A program made the translations under genes and the position numbers. Positions 3,911-54,555 of a DNA stretch of 64,000 bases are shown here, piece by piece. The notes below the pieces were generated by a model. The model saw nothing but the letters and a program-made list of their open reading frames with translations. It had not been told where the DNA came from and did no database searches. The stretch comes from Natrinema amylolyticum (GTDB lineage Archaea; Halobacteriota; Halobacteria; Halobacteriales; Natrialbaceae): contig NZ_JAIWPJ010000001.1 in NCBI RefSeq assembly GCF_020515625.1, forward strand, positions 1,364,001 through 1,428,000. Reading direction: 5' to 3'. The first letter of the stretch is position 1. Every line of letters begins with the position of its first letter.

Positions 3911-5944
3911 TCACTGCGAGGCGTCGGCCGGAATCGCGACGGTAAACGTCGCGCCCTCGCCGGGTTCGGAGTCGACTCGGATGCGACCGCCGTGGCGCTC
4001 GACGATGCGGCGACAGAGTGCGAGCCCGATGCCCGTCCCGTCGTACTCCTCGCGACTGTGGAGCCGCTGGAACACCCGGAAGACCCGATCCTGATCGTCG
4101 GGATCGATGCCGATTCCGTCGTCCGCGACCGATATCTCCCAGTTCCTGCCGTTGTGTCGGGCCTCGACGTGCACTCGCGGCGGCTCGTCCCCGCTGTACT
4201 CGATCGCGTTACTCAGGAGGTTCTGGAACAGCTGTCGGAGCTGTCGCGGGTCGCCCTGAATCTCGGGCAACGGCTCGGCGGTAATCTCGGCGTCGGTTCC
4301 CTCGATCATCACCTGTAGGTCGGTCAGGACGTCCTCGAGGACGGCGTCCAAGTCGACCGGTTCGAAGGGGTCGCCCTGCGAGTCGATCCGGGAGTACTCG
4401 AGCAGGCCGTCGATCATCTCGCGCATGCGTTCCGCGCCGTCGACGGCGTAGTCGATGAACTCCCGGCCGTCCGCGTCGAGGTCGTCGGCGTAGCGGCTCT
4501 CGATCAGTTGCAGGTAACTCGAGACCATCCGCAGGGGCTCTTGCAGGTCGTGGGAGGCGGCGTAGGCGAACTGCTCTAAGCGTTCGTTCGACGCCTCGAG
4601 ATCGGCGACGGTCTCGTTGAGCCGGCGTTCGTACCGCTGGCGTTCGATCGCGGTCGCGAGGATCGTGGCGACGCTCTCGAGAAAGTCGATGTCGTGGTCG
4701 GCGAACTCCCGCCGGTCGGTGTCGTAGACGTCGAGGACGCCCCACGGATCGGTCGCCGGACCGATCGTGACGGTGATCCCGCTCCGGACGTCGCGATCGG
4801 CCGAAAGCGACGGTCCGTCGAACCGGCCGTCGGATTCGAAGTCCTCGATCACCACGGGGCCGTCGTCCGCCAGTGCGGCGGCCGCGATCGAATCCGCAGC
4901 GGACGTCGTCAGGTCGTCGACGTCGAGGCCGGTGTCGGCCCGGAGCCGGAGCACTTCGCCGTCGGGGCCCGCGTCGTGTTCGAAGACGGTCGCGTACGAC
5001 GCGTCGAGCGCGGCCGCGACCAGTTCGGTCGCCTTCGCGAGCAGGTCGTCGGTATCGGCGCTCTCGAGGGCGTGCCGGCCGAGATACGAGACCGACTCGA
5101 GCTGGACGACCTTCTCGGACAGGGTGCGTTCGGCCTCCTTTCGGGGCGAGATGTCCCGGAAGAGGCCGACGAAATAGCGGTCGCCGTTGTACGTGAAGTC
5201 GTTGAGCGAGACGCCGAGGGGCACCTCGTGGCCGTCCGTGTGCTGGCCCGGCAATTCGACGTAGGTCCAGTTGATGTTCCGTTCGCCGGTCTCGAGGTAG
5301 CGCTGCAGCGCCGAGAGGTGGGTCTGGCGCAACCGTGGCGGGATGATCTTGACCTTACTCGAGCCGACGAGTTCGTCGGGATCGTAGCCGAGGATGCGTT
5401 CGACGGCGGGGTTGGCGTACTGGACGTCGCTGTTCGTATCGAGGACGATAATGCCGTCAGGGAGCGCGTCGGCGAGCGCCTCGAAGGTCCGCCCGTACGT
5501 GAGATCAGACTCGGATTTCACCGCTGACTGGGCCGTTCCCGTCCGGCGGCGGACGATACCGGTGAGAGCCGGCTGCTGGTCAGGTTCGGCTCCCCGCGGC
5601 CGTCGCTCGAGGTGGACGGTACAGGGGACGACGTCCGTCTTCGTTCGAATCGAAACCGGCACCGACGTCGGCGACGAATCGCCCTCGTCGAGGTCCGAAA
5701 CGAGCGACTCGATCGTCGGTCCGTCGTCGAAAAGTGCATCGACCGATCGCTCGTCGAGTTCGGCTCGCGTGTAACCGGTCAACCGCGTGAATGCGTCGTT
5801 GACCGCATCGATCGTCCCCGTCGGCGTCGCTCGGAAGCACGCGACGTCCGCCGCCTCGAGCAGCGTCGCCATTCGGGTGGGAATCGAACCGGCGAGGGCT
5901 CCGTCCTCGGTCGCCGGCGGGTCATTTGACGGGCCGGATTCCAT
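3911..5944 (-). CDS. PAS-PAS-GAF sensor histidine kinase
   Basis: A soluble 677-residue kinase. Two PAS domains come first (roughly residues 25-130 and 150-275; the second contains DGIIVLDTNSDVQYANPAVE), then a GAF domain (about 290-430), a HisKA helix with the phospho-acceptor in YAASHDLQEPLRM, and an HATPase domain with DDGIGIDPDDQDRVF and GTGIGLALCRRIVERHGG. No transmembrane segment is visible, so it should sense a cytoplasmic cue such as redox state or a small ligand. No receiver-domain gene is adjacent, which is common for haloarchaeal kinases. The ATG at 5944 is preferred; another in-frame start is at 5992. Confidence 0.9.
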   Translation of the reverse strand: MESGPSNDPPATEDGALAGSIPTRMATLLEAADVACFRATPTGTIDAVNDAFTRLTGYTRAELDERSVDALFDDGPTIESLVSDLDEGDSSPTSVPVSIRTKTDVVPCTVHLERRPRGAEPDQQPALTGIVRRRTGTAQSAVKSESDLTYGRTFEALADALPDGIIVLDTNSDVQYANPAVERILGYDPDELVGSSKVKIIPPRLRQTHLSALQRYLETGERNINWTYVELPGQHTDGHEVPLGVSLNDFTYNGDRYFVGLFRDISPRKEAERTLSEKVVQLESVSYLGRHALESADTDDLLAKATELVAAALDASYATVFEHDAGPDGEVLRLRADTGLDVDDLTTSAADSIAAAALADDGPVVIEDFESDGRFDGPSLSADRDVRSGITVTIGPATDPWGVLDVYDTDRREFADHDIDFLESVATILATAIERQRYERRLNETVADLEASNERLEQFAYAASHDLQEPLRMVSSYLQLIESRYADDLDADGREFIDYAVDGAERMREMIDGLLEYSRIDSQGDPFEPVDLDAVLEDVLTDLQVMIEGTDAEITAEPLPEIQGDPRQLRQLFQNLLSNAIEYSGDEPPRVHVEARHNGRNWEISVADDGIGIDPDDQDRVFRVFQRLHSREEYDGTGIGLALCRRIVERHGGRIRVDSEPGEGATFTVAIPADASQ

Positions 5945-26566: not shown

Positions 26567-26653
26567 TGAATTCTCGTCAGTACCGGGCCGTGATAGGTAT
26601 AACGGAGCGACTCGAATGTGGACGGCAGCTCCATATCTGGCCGATAGACGTGC

Positions 26654-26965
26654 GGTGGCGCGTGCTGTGCTACGGTTCGCCACTGGCGAACCGTCGCTCG
26701 AAGCCGCGCGAGGGATGAGCGAACGTAGTGAGCGAATCGGCTGGGGAGGACGTGGCGTTCCTAGTTGCCAGAAGCAGGTGTAGCCGTTTCCTCCACTATG
26801 AGTCAACCTGCCGGTTCAAAATCGATTACCAGTTCTTATACTGGAACCTAGGGATTCCCACACCCACCCCAGCCGATTCGCTCGGTCACGCTTCCCTCGC
26901 TCATCCCTCGCGCGGTGTTCTCCTGCGATTCACTGGTCGTTCATCGCAGGACAGCACGCGCCACC
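26654..26965. repeat. Palindromic structured element, copy 1
   Basis: The element is bounded by perfect 15-base inverted ends (GGTGGCGCGTGCTGT at 26654-26668 and its complement at 26951-26965). Inside, from left to right, are a perfect hairpin with nine-base stem (26673-26681 with 26685-26693), a long left arm (26704-26771), a variable centre, a right arm (26841-26915) and a second hairpin with nine-base stem (26921-26929 with 26943-26951). The arms pair perfectly over 26704-26722/26897-26915 and 26730-26746/26867-26883. A second copy is at 48537-48836. No transposase is encoded, so it could be a MITE-like element or a source of a structured RNA. Short open frames inside it are not believable as genes. 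Confidence 0.75.
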
Positions 26966-27010
26966 ACGACAGTCACTCGAGTCACGCGACGAGCGATCGA
27001 TCACTGATTG

Positions 27011-27847
27011 TCACCGTTCACCCGCCTCGAGCGCCTCCCGATCCCGAACCCACGCGTCGCTGCCGAATTTCCGCTCGGCGAGGTCCCGCGCGGCCTCGAG
27101 TTCGCCGTCCCGCCACGTCGATTCCTCGGCGTCACACCAGTCCCGCAGCGACTCGGCGATCGTCCCGACCGCTTCGTCCCGGTCGATCCCCGCCTCGTCG
27201 CGGATGCTCGTCACGCGATCAGTGAAGGTCGACTTCTCGAGATCGGTGTCGAAGACGCCGACGTGTTTCCGGGGCTCGAGAGCGTAGCTGATCGAGCCGT
27301 GCTGGATGACGACGTCGCGCTGGCGGTACTGAGCGTTGCCGCTGATCTTTTTCGCCTCGCTGCCCGCGTCCGCCGGCGCGACGATGTCGTGGGCCGGGTT
27401 GATGTCCCGCAGATAGCACGAGGGCTGGTAGATGGCGTCCTGCTCGGCCGATGCGAAGGCGGCGTCGACGCCCATTCGATCGAACGCCTCGAGGATCGGC
27501 TCGCAGAACAGTTCGTAACAGTCCATCAGGTTCCCCGGGACCTCGTCGGCGGGAGCGACGATCGTATACGAGATGTCGGCATAGCGGTCGTGATAGATCC
27601 CGCCGCCGCCGGTCTGCCGTCGCGTCACGTCGATCCCCTCCCGCTCGCAGAACTCCCAGTCGACCGTGTCGGCGTCCTGTCGATACCCCAGCGAGAGCGT
27701 GCTCGGCTCCCACGAGTACGTGCGGACGGTTCGAACGTCGTCCTCGAGCGCCGTTCGCGCGGCTATTTCCTCGATGGCCATCTGCGTTGCCCCGTCGCGG
27801 GGCTCGTCCCGGATCAGTCGCCAGTCCCGATCGGCCAGTGTCGTCAT
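27011..27847 (-). CDS. lplA: Lipoate-protein ligase A
   Basis: The 278-residue protein has the lipoate-binding motif RRQTGGGGIYHD, the catalytic lysine segment KKISGNAQYRQ and VIQHGSISY, in the biotin/lipoate ligase fold. It activates lipoate with ATP and attaches it to E2 or GcvH proteins. It lies about 4 kb from the fused 2-oxoacid dehydrogenase E1 at 31681, whose complex would need lipoylated E2, though no E2 gene is in the window. The ATG at 27847 was preferred; 27859 is four codons upstream. Confidence 0.9.
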   Translation of the reverse strand: MTTLADRDWRLIRDEPRDGATQMAIEEIAARTALEDDVRTVRTYSWEPSTLSLGYRQDADTVDWEFCEREGIDVTRRQTGGGGIYHDRYADISYTIVAPADEVPGNLMDCYELFCEPILEAFDRMGVDAAFASAEQDAIYQPSCYLRDINPAHDIVAPADAGSEAKKISGNAQYRQRDVVIQHGSISYALEPRKHVGVFDTDLEKSTFTDRVTSIRDEAGIDRDEAVGTIAESLRDWCDAEESTWRDGELEAARDLAERKFGSDAWVRDREALEAGER

Positions 27848-45954: not shown

Positions 45955-47283
45955 ATGACCGAACCGATACGGGACCGACTCGTCAGCCTCCGGCGCAGCT
46001 TCCACCGTCACCCCGAGCCCGCGTGGCGCGAGTTCCTCACGACGGCCCGCCTCGTCGAGGAGATCAGGGCCATCGGCGTCGACGAACTGGCCGTCGGCCC
46101 CGACGCCTACGACCCCGCCGATCGGATGGCCGTCACCGACGACGACCTCGAACCGTGGGTCGAACGCGCCCGCGAGCGCGGCGCGGACGAGGCCCTGCTC
46201 GAGCGGATGACCGGCGGGAACACAGGTGCGGTCGCCGTGCTCGAGCGCGGCGAGGGGCCGGCGATCGGGCTGCGCGTCGACATCGACGGGCTGTTCATCG
46301 AGGAATCGACCGCCGCGGACCACGATCCCGCGACCGAGGGCTTTCGCTCCGAGATCGACGGGACGATGCACGCCTGCGGCCACGACGTCCACATGACCTG
46401 GGGGCTCGCCGTCCTCGAGGCGATCGCCGAGAGCGATTTCTCGGGACGGCTGGTTGTCTTCTTCCAGCCCGCCGAGGAGACCGGCGGCGGGGGTTGTCCG
46501 ATGGCGAGAAGCGAGTTCGCGGACGGGCTGGACTACCTACTGGCGGTCCACGTCGGCCTCGACCACCCGACCGGCGAGGTGGTGGCCGGGATCGAGAAAC
46601 CGCTGGCGATGTGCCACGTCGACGTGACGATAGAAGGAACCTCCGCGCACGCGGGCAAGGCCCCGAACGAGGGGGCAAACGCGATGCACGCTATGGGGAC
46701 CGGAATCGTGAACGCCTACGGCATCCCCCGCCACAGCGACGGGATGACGCGGGTGAACGTCGGGAAGGCCGAGGCCGGGACGGCGAGCAACGTCATCGCC
46801 GAACGCGCCGCCATGGAGGCCGAAGCGCGGGGCGAGACGACCGAACTGATGGAGTACATGAAGCGCCGCCTCGAGCGCACGATGAAATCGGCCGCGACGA
46901 TGCACGGCTGCCGAGCCGAGGTCGACGTGGTCAGCGAGTCGCCCCGAGCCGACAGCGACGCCGAACTGCAGGCGCTGGTGAGCGAGGTCGCCGACGGCGT
47001 CGCGGGCATCGAACGCGTGCTGCCGGCCGCCGACTTCGGCGCGAGCGAGGACGCGACCTTCCTGATGGAACGCGTCCAGGAGGAGGGCGGGCTGGCGACG
47101 TACACGATCATCGGCACCGACCACCCGACCAGCCATCACACGCCGACGTTCGACGTCGACGAGCGCAGTCTCCGGCACGGCGTCGACGTTCTGGTCGGGA
47201 CGATCCGAGAGCTCGAGGCCCGGCATCCGGTTCCACAGGTCGACGAGAGAGCGGGCGTCGAACGCGCGGAGACCGGGGAATGA
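45955..47283 (+). CDS. M20-family amidohydrolase (AbgA/DoeB2-like), paralogue 1
   Basis: The 442-residue metallohydrolase has SFHRHPEPAWREF, the zinc segments HACGHDVHM and FQPAEETGGG, the dimerisation segment THAGKAPNEGANAM-like (SAHAGKAPNEGANAM) and the final GTDHPTSHHTPTF. An insertion of about 50 residues after the first helix matches the AbgA-type p-aminobenzoyl-glutamate hydrolases. It removes an acyl group from an amino acid; in the ectoine setting this could be N-acetyl-diaminobutyrate (DoeB2 role). Its stop overlaps the start of the next gene (ATGA). A paralogue is at 53275. ATG 45955 preferred over GTG 45946. Confidence 0.88.
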   Translation: MTEPIRDRLVSLRRSFHRHPEPAWREFLTTARLVEEIRAIGVDELAVGPDAYDPADRMAVTDDDLEPWVERARERGADEALLERMTGGNTGAVAVLERGEGPAIGLRVDIDGLFIEESTAADHDPATEGFRSEIDGTMHACGHDVHMTWGLAVLEAIAESDFSGRLVVFFQPAEETGGGGCPMARSEFADGLDYLLAVHVGLDHPTGEVVAGIEKPLAMCHVDVTIEGTSAHAGKAPNEGANAMHAMGTGIVNAYGIPRHSDGMTRVNVGKAEAGTASNVIAERAAMEAEARGETTELMEYMKRRLERTMKSAATMHGCRAEVDVVSESPRADSDAELQALVSEVADGVAGIERVLPAADFGASEDATFLMERVQEEGGLATYTIIGTDHPTSHHTPTFDVDERSLRHGVDVLVGTIRELEARHPVPQVDERAGVERAETGE

Positions 47284-48518: not shown

Positions 48519-48536
48519 TCGTCTCGAGCATACAGT

Positions 48537-48836
48537 CGGCGCGCTGAACCGCGACGGAGTCGCGGTTCGACTACCGCGAGGGATGAGTGAGCGACCAGAG
48601 GGAGCGAACGAATCGGCTGGGGAGGGCGTGGAATTCACAGTTGCCACGATGAGAGAGTACCGACAGTCAGGGCTCGGATTATGCGATAATAGACGGGAAC
48701 ACTGCTCGCACTGGCGGCTAGGAATTCCACACCCTCCCCAACCGATTTGCTCAGTCACTTCGTTCCCTCGCTCATCCCTCGCACGACTTTGGACCGGGGT
48801 TCGCTGTCGGCTCACCACGGTCCAGCGCGCGCCACC
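48537..48836. repeat. Palindromic structured element, copy 2
   Basis: This has the same plan as copy 1 at 26654-26965. The ends are complementary (GGCGCGCTG at 48538-48546 and, with a two-base indel, 48823-48833). A nine-base left hairpin (48546-48554 with 48560-48568) follows, then a left arm (48574-48646), a variable centre, a right arm (48711-48785) and a right hairpin with seven-base stem (48790-48796 with 48818-48824). The arms are close to those of copy 1 (gcgagggatgag, aatcggctgggga). Both hairpins differ in sequence from copy 1 while keeping pairing. No protein is encoded. It lies between the dehydratase and an aminotransferase. Confidence 0.73.
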
Positions 48837-48949
48837 GCACATGGTTTCGCCGGAATGGTAGACGATACAGTACTGAAACGATATCCGTTTACAGACTCGA
48901 GCGAACGCGGAAGCGAAACTCGAGAACCCGGAAGCGAAATGAGACGGAC

Positions 48950-53274: not shown

Positions 53275-54555
53275 TCACGGCCGTCGACGGGAGATTTCCG
53301 TCGCCGTCTCGGATAGCAGCGCTACCCCGATCTCGAGGCTCTCCTCGTCGATGTCGAACGTCGGCGTGTGGTGGCTGGTCGGATGGTCGGTGCCGACGAG
53401 GACGTAAGAGGCGAGGCCGCCGTCGTCTTGGACGCGTTCCATCAGATAGGTCACGTCCTCGCTCACGCCGAACTCCTCGCTCGAAATCACTCGCTCGATG
53501 CCCTCGACCTCCCACGCGACGTTTCCGACGAGGTCCCGCAGGGCGGGGTGGCTGTCGACGCGGGGCGACTCGCTGATCACTCGCGGCGCGACGTCGCAGT
53601 CGTGCATCTCCGCGGCGGCGTACAGCACCCGTTCGAGTTCCGTGCGCGTGTACTCCATCAGTGAGGTGGTCTCGCCGCGGACCTCGGCCTCGATCGCGAC
53701 CTCCTCGGCGATGACGTTGCTGGCGGTACCGCCCTCGATACGGCCGACGTTCACCCGCGTCATCCCCTCGCTGTGGCGGGGGATGGCGTACGCGTTCTGG
53801 ATCGCGGTCGCCGCGGCCTGCATCGCGTTCGCCCCCTCGTTCGGGGCCTTCCCCGCGTGGGCGCTCGCGCCCTCGAAGGTCGCGGTCAGGTGCGCCATCG
53901 CCAGCGGTTTCTCGATCCCCGCGACGATCTCGCCCGTGGGATGGTCCAGCCCGACGTGGATCGCGAGCAGGTAGTCGACATCGCTCAGGTAGCCGCTCTC
54001 GGCCATCGCCTTCCCACCCCCCGAGATCTCCTCGGCGGGCTGGAAGAACACCTTCAGCGTCCCCGAAAAGTCGCTCTCCTTCACCGCCTCGAGCGTGCCG
54101 AGCGCTATCGCGAGGTGGGCGTCGTGGCCGCAGGCGTGCATGTAGCCCTCGTGTTCGGAGCGAAAGCCCTCCGCTGCCGGCCGGTGATCGCTCTCGTCGG
54201 ACTCCCGCATCGAGATCGCATCGAGATCGACGCGCAGCCCGATGCAGGGACCACTCCCCTGCTCGAGGGTCGCGATGACCCCTGTGTGCCCGCCAGCGGT
54301 GCGCTCGAGGACGTCGGATCGAACGCCGGCCTCGCGCGCCCGCTCGAGCCAGGGCTCGAGGTCGGCGTCGGACGGAACGGCCATCCGCGCGTCGGTCGCC
54401 AGGGCCTCGCGGCCGACGGCGATCTCGTCGACGCCGATCCGCTCGAGTTCCTCGACGACGCGGCCGGTCGTCCGAAACTCGCGCCAGCCGGGTTCGGGGT
54501 GGCGGTGAAACGCCCGCCGGAGATCGCTCAGTCTGGTTCGCACGTCGTAGGACAT
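53275..54555 (-). CDS. M20-family amidohydrolase (AbgA/DoeB2-like), paralogue 2
   Basis: The 426-residue protein closely resembles the product of 45955: AFHRHPEPGWREF, MHACGHDAHLAIALG, FFQPAEEISGGG, SAHAGKAPNEGANAM and TDHPTSHHTPTFDID. All zinc ligands are kept. The two probably arose by duplication and may differ in acyl substrate, for example alpha- versus gamma-acetyl-diaminobutyrate. The ATG at 54555 matches the paralogue's start; the longer frame is unsupported. It is transcribed towards the unknown gene at 52539, 88 bases away. Confidence 0.88.
   Translation of the reverse strand: MSYDVRTRLSDLRRAFHRHPEPGWREFRTTGRVVEELERIGVDEIAVGREALATDARMAVPSDADLEPWLERAREAGVRSDVLERTAGGHTGVIATLEQGSGPCIGLRVDLDAISMRESDESDHRPAAEGFRSEHEGYMHACGHDAHLAIALGTLEAVKESDFSGTLKVFFQPAEEISGGGKAMAESGYLSDVDYLLAIHVGLDHPTGEIVAGIEKPLAMAHLTATFEGASAHAGKAPNEGANAMQAAATAIQNAYAIPRHSEGMTRVNVGRIEGGTASNVIAEEVAIEAEVRGETTSLMEYTRTELERVLYAAAEMHDCDVAPRVISESPRVDSHPALRDLVGNVAWEVEGIERVISSEEFGVSEDVTYLMERVQDDGGLASYVLVGTDHPTSHHTPTFDIDEESLEIGVALLSETATEISRRRP

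Follow-up and report, generated by a model that had tools for sequence, protein, structure and literature searches.

The window, a 64,000-nt stretch of the Natrinema amylolyticum genome (contig NZ_JAIWPJ010000001.1, positions 1,364,001 to 1,428,000), contains two copies of a repeat, and both copies are doublets in which two units lie in inverted orientation. Inverted paralogous amidohydrolase-like genes with ~73% identity (window positions 46198-47202 and 53305-54309) lie on either side of the copy 2 region. At 5566-5663, ARAGORN identified a tRNA-Asp of 98 nt that Rfam did not report at gathering score; it may contain an intron or may be a false prediction.

The unit is oriented and ~250 nt long, and it consists of an end motif T (TGCGGTGGCGCGCGCTG), a first hairpin (hp1), arm A, a second hairpin (hp2), a G-rich arm B, a weaker third hairpin (hp3), and a tail. 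Its detailed order is an outer stretch of ~49 nt that is partly conserved, T, hp1, GCGAGG, hp2 (GAT...ATC), arm B (GGCTGGGGAGGGCGTGG), hp3, GCAGGAC, and a pyrimidine-rich tail; the conserved blocks are TGCGGTGGCGCGCGCTG and GCGAGGGATGAG. The features of the two copies are as follows (window coordinates).

about 26651-26965: copy 1, a doublet of two inverted halves
26651-26667, plus strand: copy 1 left end motif T (TGCGGTGGCGCGTGCTG); model R1 match 26652-26719, E 5.7e-7
26672-26694, plus strand: copy 1 left hp1, perfect stem ACGGTTCGCC/GGCGAACCGT (CGGTTCGCC/GGCGAACCG at 26673-26693)
26708-26719, plus strand: copy 1 left arm A
26714-26738, plus strand: copy 1 left hp2, GAT-GA-GC-GA-AC-GTA-GT-GA-GC-GA-ATC, a clear GA zipper
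26739-26755, plus strand: copy 1 left arm B (GGCTGGGGAGGACGTGG)
26858-26874, minus strand: copy 1 right arm B
26875-26905, minus strand: copy 1 right hp2
26900-26911, minus strand: copy 1 right arm A
26921-26951, minus strand: copy 1 right hp1, TCCTGCGAT-GA-AC-GACCA-GT-GA-ATCGCAGGA on the minus strand
26952-26965, minus strand: copy 1 right end motif T; model R1 match 26900-26967, E 1.9e-8
about 48533-48839: copy 2, a doublet of two inverted halves
48533-48546, plus strand: copy 2 left end motif T, degraded (CAGTCGGCGCGCTG); model R1 match 48532-48587, E 0.009
48546-48568, plus strand: copy 2 left hp1, perfect stem GAACCGCGA/TCGCGGTTC, the minority type that has no GA/GA loop
48576-48587, plus strand: copy 2 left arm A (GCGAGGGATGAG)
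48582-48614, plus strand: copy 2 left hp2 position (GAT...ATC, GA-zipper hairpin), placed by family pattern and sequence
48615-48631, plus strand: copy 2 left arm B, G-rich (GGCTGGGGAGGGCGTGG)
48627-48648, plus strand: copy 2 left hp3, CGTGG...CCACG, placed by sequence and the hp3-like family pattern
48649-48711, strand not applicable: copy 2 center between the inverted units, variable and AT-richer
48712-48729, minus strand: copy 2 right hp3
48727-48743, minus strand: copy 2 right arm B
48744-48776, minus strand: copy 2 right hp2
48771-48782, minus strand: copy 2 right arm A
48791-48823, minus strand: copy 2 right hp1, GGACCGTGGT-GA-GC-CGACA-GC-GA-ACCCCGGTCC on the minus strand, GA/GA loop present (TGGACCG/CGGTCCA at 48790-48824)
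48823-48839, minus strand: copy 2 right end motif T (TGCGGTGGCGCGCGCTG on the minus strand); model R1 match 48771-48838, E 3.4e-8

The arms GCGAGGGATGAG and AATCGGCTGGGG are common to both copies. An earlier note on this DNA had claimed that the hairpins differ between the copies yet stay paired, and all four stems were found where it had placed them; both left hairpins are perfect stems, which are the minority type, and both right hairpins contain a 2x2 GA/GA internal loop. Folded as single-stranded DNA, copy 2 reaches -87.3 kcal/mol (z = -7.9), a value that none of 100 shuffled sequences matched, and its predicted fold is four-armed, with an end stem, the left hp1, a long arm stem, and the right hp1. 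At copy 1, ACTCGAGT looks like an 8-bp duplication, but we discarded it, as it may be part of the unit's own end. Because two copies cannot by themselves prove covariation, the claim rests on the wider family.

Distribution and architecture of the family

Using a covariance model built from units of the window's own genome, we identified the repeat in 103 of 292 haloarchaeal genomes, about one third of those sampled, and in 37 of 77 genera; in this sample at most 17 matches per genome were counted. The window's own genome contains 81 similarity matches in ~40 places. Based on model R1, copy number within Natrinema ranges from 2 to 37 per genome; the model search found no unit in two Natrinema species. 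A motif scan of GTDB genomes identified at least 80 loci, and all loci listed are haloarchaeal, from Natrinema, Natronococcus, Natronorubrum, Haloterrigena, Halopiger, Natronolimnohabitans, Halosimplex, Haladaptatus, Halovenus, and other Halobacteriales. The unit is present in two records of a plasmid collection, and we found none in IMG/VR viral contigs and phage records. Rfam has no match to the repeat above gathering score, and our search of open-access papers yielded haloarchaeal MITEs, PATEs, and SMRs, with nothing that matches the unit. The repeat family is real and widespread, and it appears to be undescribed.

Among the distinct units in the DNA collected, 147 are singlets and 70 have an inverted partner, such that approximately two thirds have a single T. 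In clear cases, doublets measure ~300-465 bp from T to T', with inverted ends and no transposase gene. The end motif is near-invariant (pairwise identity of 0.98 in class I), whereas the two strands of the hp1 stem are only 74% and 71% identical from copy to copy in that class. An hp3-like pattern occurs in 131 of 196 units, some units have extra palindromes inserted inside hp1 or hp2, and arm B could form a two-tier G-quadruplex, judging only by sequence resemblance. The exact outer end of the unit is uncertain because part of the ~49-nt stretch at one locus (L038) occurs without the unit in another species.

Pairing of the hairpins and the strand that folds

We assembled a set of 111 hp1 sequences by their flanking T and A motifs alone, so pairing was not a selection criterion. 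Although 109 of these sequences are distinct, nearly all pair and adopt the same hairpin (mean folding z of -3.3); 86 have a stem, a 2x2 GA/GA loop, 2-3 bp, and a small loop. The earlier note had called for a covariation test across many copies. We performed it on unaltered sequences, using a G-statistic corrected by average product and a null from simulation on a tree, and the best-scoring hp1 column pairs fell on the predicted stem, several with E<0.05. In class II (22 sequences), the top 9 column pairs are all on the stem, 6 of them with E<0.05; in class I (34 sequences), the top 4 are all on the stem, 3 of them with E<0.05. The second hairpin is a covarying "GA zipper," in which 2-bp Watson-Crick steps alternate with tandem G·A, and it contains 423 standard pairs, compared to 350 ± 6.5 when partners were shuffled among copies of equal length. 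Between two close species with ~96% identical flanks, the hp1 stem TCGACTG/CAGTCGA corresponds to TCAACTG/CAGTTGA, a compensatory double change from G-C to A-T.

Non-Watson-Crick pairs in the outer hp1 stem are strongly biased by strand: G·T outnumbers A·C (43 vs. 4; p 3e-9), and G·A outnumbers T·C (26 vs. 3; p 2e-5). In the 29 doublets with both hp1, G·T exceeds A·C to a similar degree when each end is counted alone (11:1 and 10:1). One strand therefore folds at each doublet end, and the two ends fold on opposite strands. By DNA folding energies, 101 of the 111 hp1 sequences are more stable on the unit strand and 4 on the complement. Because hairpin sequence varies from copy to copy while pairing is kept on one strand, the conclusion that selection acts on the folded shape of that strand, rather than on its sequence, is well supported; the covariation of hp1 and hp2 and the preference for G·T over A·C support the earlier proposal of a structure selected in RNA or single-stranded DNA.

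Pairing of G with U is also expected of structured RNA. The class-I tetraloops, however, are mostly GNNA, and their third base is a pyrimidine in 27 cases vs. 7, whereas the RNA tetraloop rule is GNRA; d(cGNNAg) loops and 5'-PyGAPu tandem G·A are stable DNA motifs. To judge from their sequences, the class-I loops fit DNA cGNNAg better than RNA GNRA, and the evidence tilts toward DNA.

The earlier note had also suggested a variable specificity module on a constant scaffold, and this idea found no support in hp1. Its stem 8-mers are no commoner in their own flanks than in the flanks of other copies (151 vs. 142 ± 14); the stems do not match their flanks, so we rejected a guide-like module.

Possible traces of movement and the search for a mover

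Two loci at unrelated places (L038 and L040) share 90% identity over ~236 nt, tail included, and the unit is present in some species and absent from others at orthologous sites. At one locus common to many Natrinema species, T and A are unchanged, yet hp1 belongs to class I in some species and to class II in the rest of those that retain it; this switch looks like the exchange of a whole module. At the same locus, other species retain just fused end motifs, which are remnants of internal deletion. Doublet interiors are inverted relative to their flanks in two genome comparisons (G009 vs. G010 and G014 vs. G025). Empty and filled orthologous sites are too diverged to place junctions, and no clean junction or target duplication was seen among them. 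At most of the loci compared between close species, the unit is present in both, so the comparison revealed no recent jump.

Coding capacity is absent from the typical repeat. A doublet of G009 and G010 (L319 and L331) is ~894 bp long, and its AT-rich interior of 550 bp, which is inverted between the two species, contains a hydrophobic, membrane-like frame of 61 codons. We rejected this doublet as an autonomous parent because it holds only that frame. Several other insertions were observed at compared sites. In G014 (C1, ~466942-467092; 26941-27093 of the joined stretch; L347), a 151-bp insertion that is absent from G025 at the same site has the ends TAGCGTGTCATAGAAT.../...ATTCTATGACACGCTC and is flanked on either side by the 8-bp direct repeat CATGTTGT; it is a clean, ordinary MITE insertion. 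Conversely, G025 (C4, L349-L350) contains a palindromic insert of 79 nt (TAGTAGTCGCTGAAAC...TTTCAGCGGCTACT) that is absent from G014 at one site; a second copy of this insert adjoins a hairpin unit. An ~80-nt insert (a palindrome, CAGACGGACTCCTGTCAGTCAG...) that resembles a small mobile repeat is present in some Natrinema species and absent from close relatives (L303 vs. L298, also L311 and L312). Lastly, L290 and L289 share a promoter-like stretch, which gives way to a hairpin unit in the window's species and to a different, AT-rich stretch that codes for protein in G022.

Apart from common paralogues, the neighborhoods of the units have no gene family in common, and we saw no transposase gene within a unit. 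We found no transposon with T ends in the window's own genome or beside units in the other species scanned; own-genome T motifs without arm A, considered as possible signs of an autonomous parent, were chance matches in genes or more degraded units. In archaea, only IS200-type Y1 proteins have been reported (PMC6006769). The window's own genome has two Y1 transposase genes, but no unit lies near either, and model R1 has no match within either locus, so these loci provide no IS200/IS605 link to the unit. Among 54 unit-bearing genomes of the window's family, 13 have no Y1 (PF01797) match, complete one-contig genomes included, and several high-copy genomes lack a Y1 transposase. Given the lack of linkage and the carriers without Y1, a RAYT-type mover is unlikely, and on this feature the unit does not belong to the REP/RAYT group, although it behaves similarly.

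Interpretation and comparison with known systems

Compensatory change maintains the hairpins on the unit strand, whichever way neighboring transcription runs in tandem gene pairs. The explanation that we prefer, and to which we give about an even chance, is a dispersed, non-coding, oriented repeat, similar to REP/REPIN, whose ends are recognized as folded single strands and which is mobilized. Much as the hairpin ends of REP/REPIN and IS200/IS605 are read, an enzyme encoded elsewhere would recognize T together with the unit strand, folded as single-stranded DNA, and would copy or move the unit. The signal would lie in the shape of hp1 rather than in its sequence, so that the stem could drift freely while paired and could be swapped whole between copies. 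Doublets fold into a four-armed foldback, with inversion and internal deletion taking place between its arms. More tentatively, this may be an archaeal REP-like system without Y1/RAYT, in which an enzyme reads single-strand shape, perhaps the tandem G·A loops and the GA-zipper hairpin, leaves the stem sequence nearly free, and spreads the unit through haloarchaeal genomes.

Gene context, obtained with a home-made gene finder, bears on several alternatives. None of 105 placed units lies inside a gene, and the genes neighboring 92 non-redundant units are convergent in 39 cases, tandem in 38, and divergent in 15, which fits tolerance of insertions away from promoters. The excess of convergent over divergent genes, where positive supercoils gather, and the conservation of the G-rich arm B would also suit a host chromosome-architecture site for gyrase, SMC, or a nucleoid protein, like the gyrase-binding BIMEs of E. 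coli; however, the same excess is also expected if insertions near promoters are selected against, and copy number varies strongly among related species (from none found to 37 in Natrinema), and we consider such a site very unlikely. That the unit is transcribed into a structured RNA, as a multicopy small RNA or as a 3'-UTR element by which messages of the upstream gene are ended or protected, seems somewhat unlikely to us. In favor of RNA, G·T is tolerated on one strand, 60 of the 92 units are in sense orientation downstream of a gene, usually 20-100 nt past the stop codon, and the sequence right after hp3 is slightly rich in pyrimidines. Yet orientation in tandem gene pairs is about random (21 sense, 17 antisense; p 0.63), which argues against a pure read-through RNA role and led us to reject a read-through 3'-UTR element as the sole role. 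Moreover, some units lie between divergent genes, no common TATA-like AT peak is present upstream, the folding strand is opposite at the two doublet ends, and Rfam offers no match. An intrinsic terminator was likewise rejected, since a run of T4+ follows only 28 of 147 singlets.

Two further alternatives treat the hairpins as by-products. In a classical MITE, a DDE transposase would read the terminal inverted repeat as double-stranded DNA, and the hairpins would be passengers; the inverted ends with near-invariant T, the typical MITE length, and the lack of coding capacity agree with this. Passenger hairpins, however, are expected to lack the covariation and strand bias that we observed, approximately two thirds of the counted units are singlets with one T, no target duplication was found, and the window's own genome has no transposon with T ends, all of which make a MITE of this kind distinctly improbable. 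Pairing could also be a mutational artifact in which template switching or arm conversion perfects palindromes without selection. Long inverted repeats are prone to such repair, and doublet interiors do invert; nonetheless, such repair gives perfect stems without strand preference, whereas G·T and G·A greatly exceed A·C and T·C and the GA/GA loop is retained in 86 of 111 sequences, and we regard an artifact as highly improbable.

These results make the repeat a clear example from nature of selection that acts on the shape into which one strand folds and not on its sequence, and the >100 natural hairpin variants could be used to define the needs of a structure-reading enzyme or RNA-binding protein. 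The mover is probably not a Y1 transposase, which defines a specific, testable gap.

Like the unit, ERIC, NEMIS, and BOX are long foldback intergenic repeats with modular inserts; they differ in sequence and in host domain (bacteria), and they are not known to have strand-specific GA-loop hairpins or a GA zipper. The doublets share with MITEs their terminal inverted repeats, a length of <~600 bp (in clear cases), and the absence of a transposase gene. The SMRs of Haloquadratum walsbyi are likewise short and non-coding, with inverted terminal repeats and no relation to known transposons; however, SMR-A is ~110 bp long and targets other mobile elements, whereas the repeat described here is longer, lies in ordinary intergenic DNA, and has variable internal hairpins (PMC3119063). 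The PATEs of the same species resemble the unit in being haloarchaeal and transposase-free, with near-terminal palindromes and no target duplication seen, but they lack terminal inverted repeats and have ends in common with IS605-type transposons, whereas the doublets have inverted ends (PMC3119063). Relative to REP, a palindrome of 20-40 bp, the unit is far longer and has three hairpins; relative to REP/BIME/REPIN as a group, it is archaeal, has no RAYT, occurs in several carriers without Y1, and is found mainly as singlets. It nevertheless shares with that group its many intergenic copies with a conserved end block, its occurrence as singlets and inverted doublets, an imperfect hairpin with compensatory changes, and a strand-specific signal; in REP/REPIN, too, a conserved end block is combined with a spacer that commonly shows compensatory changes (PMC3116915).
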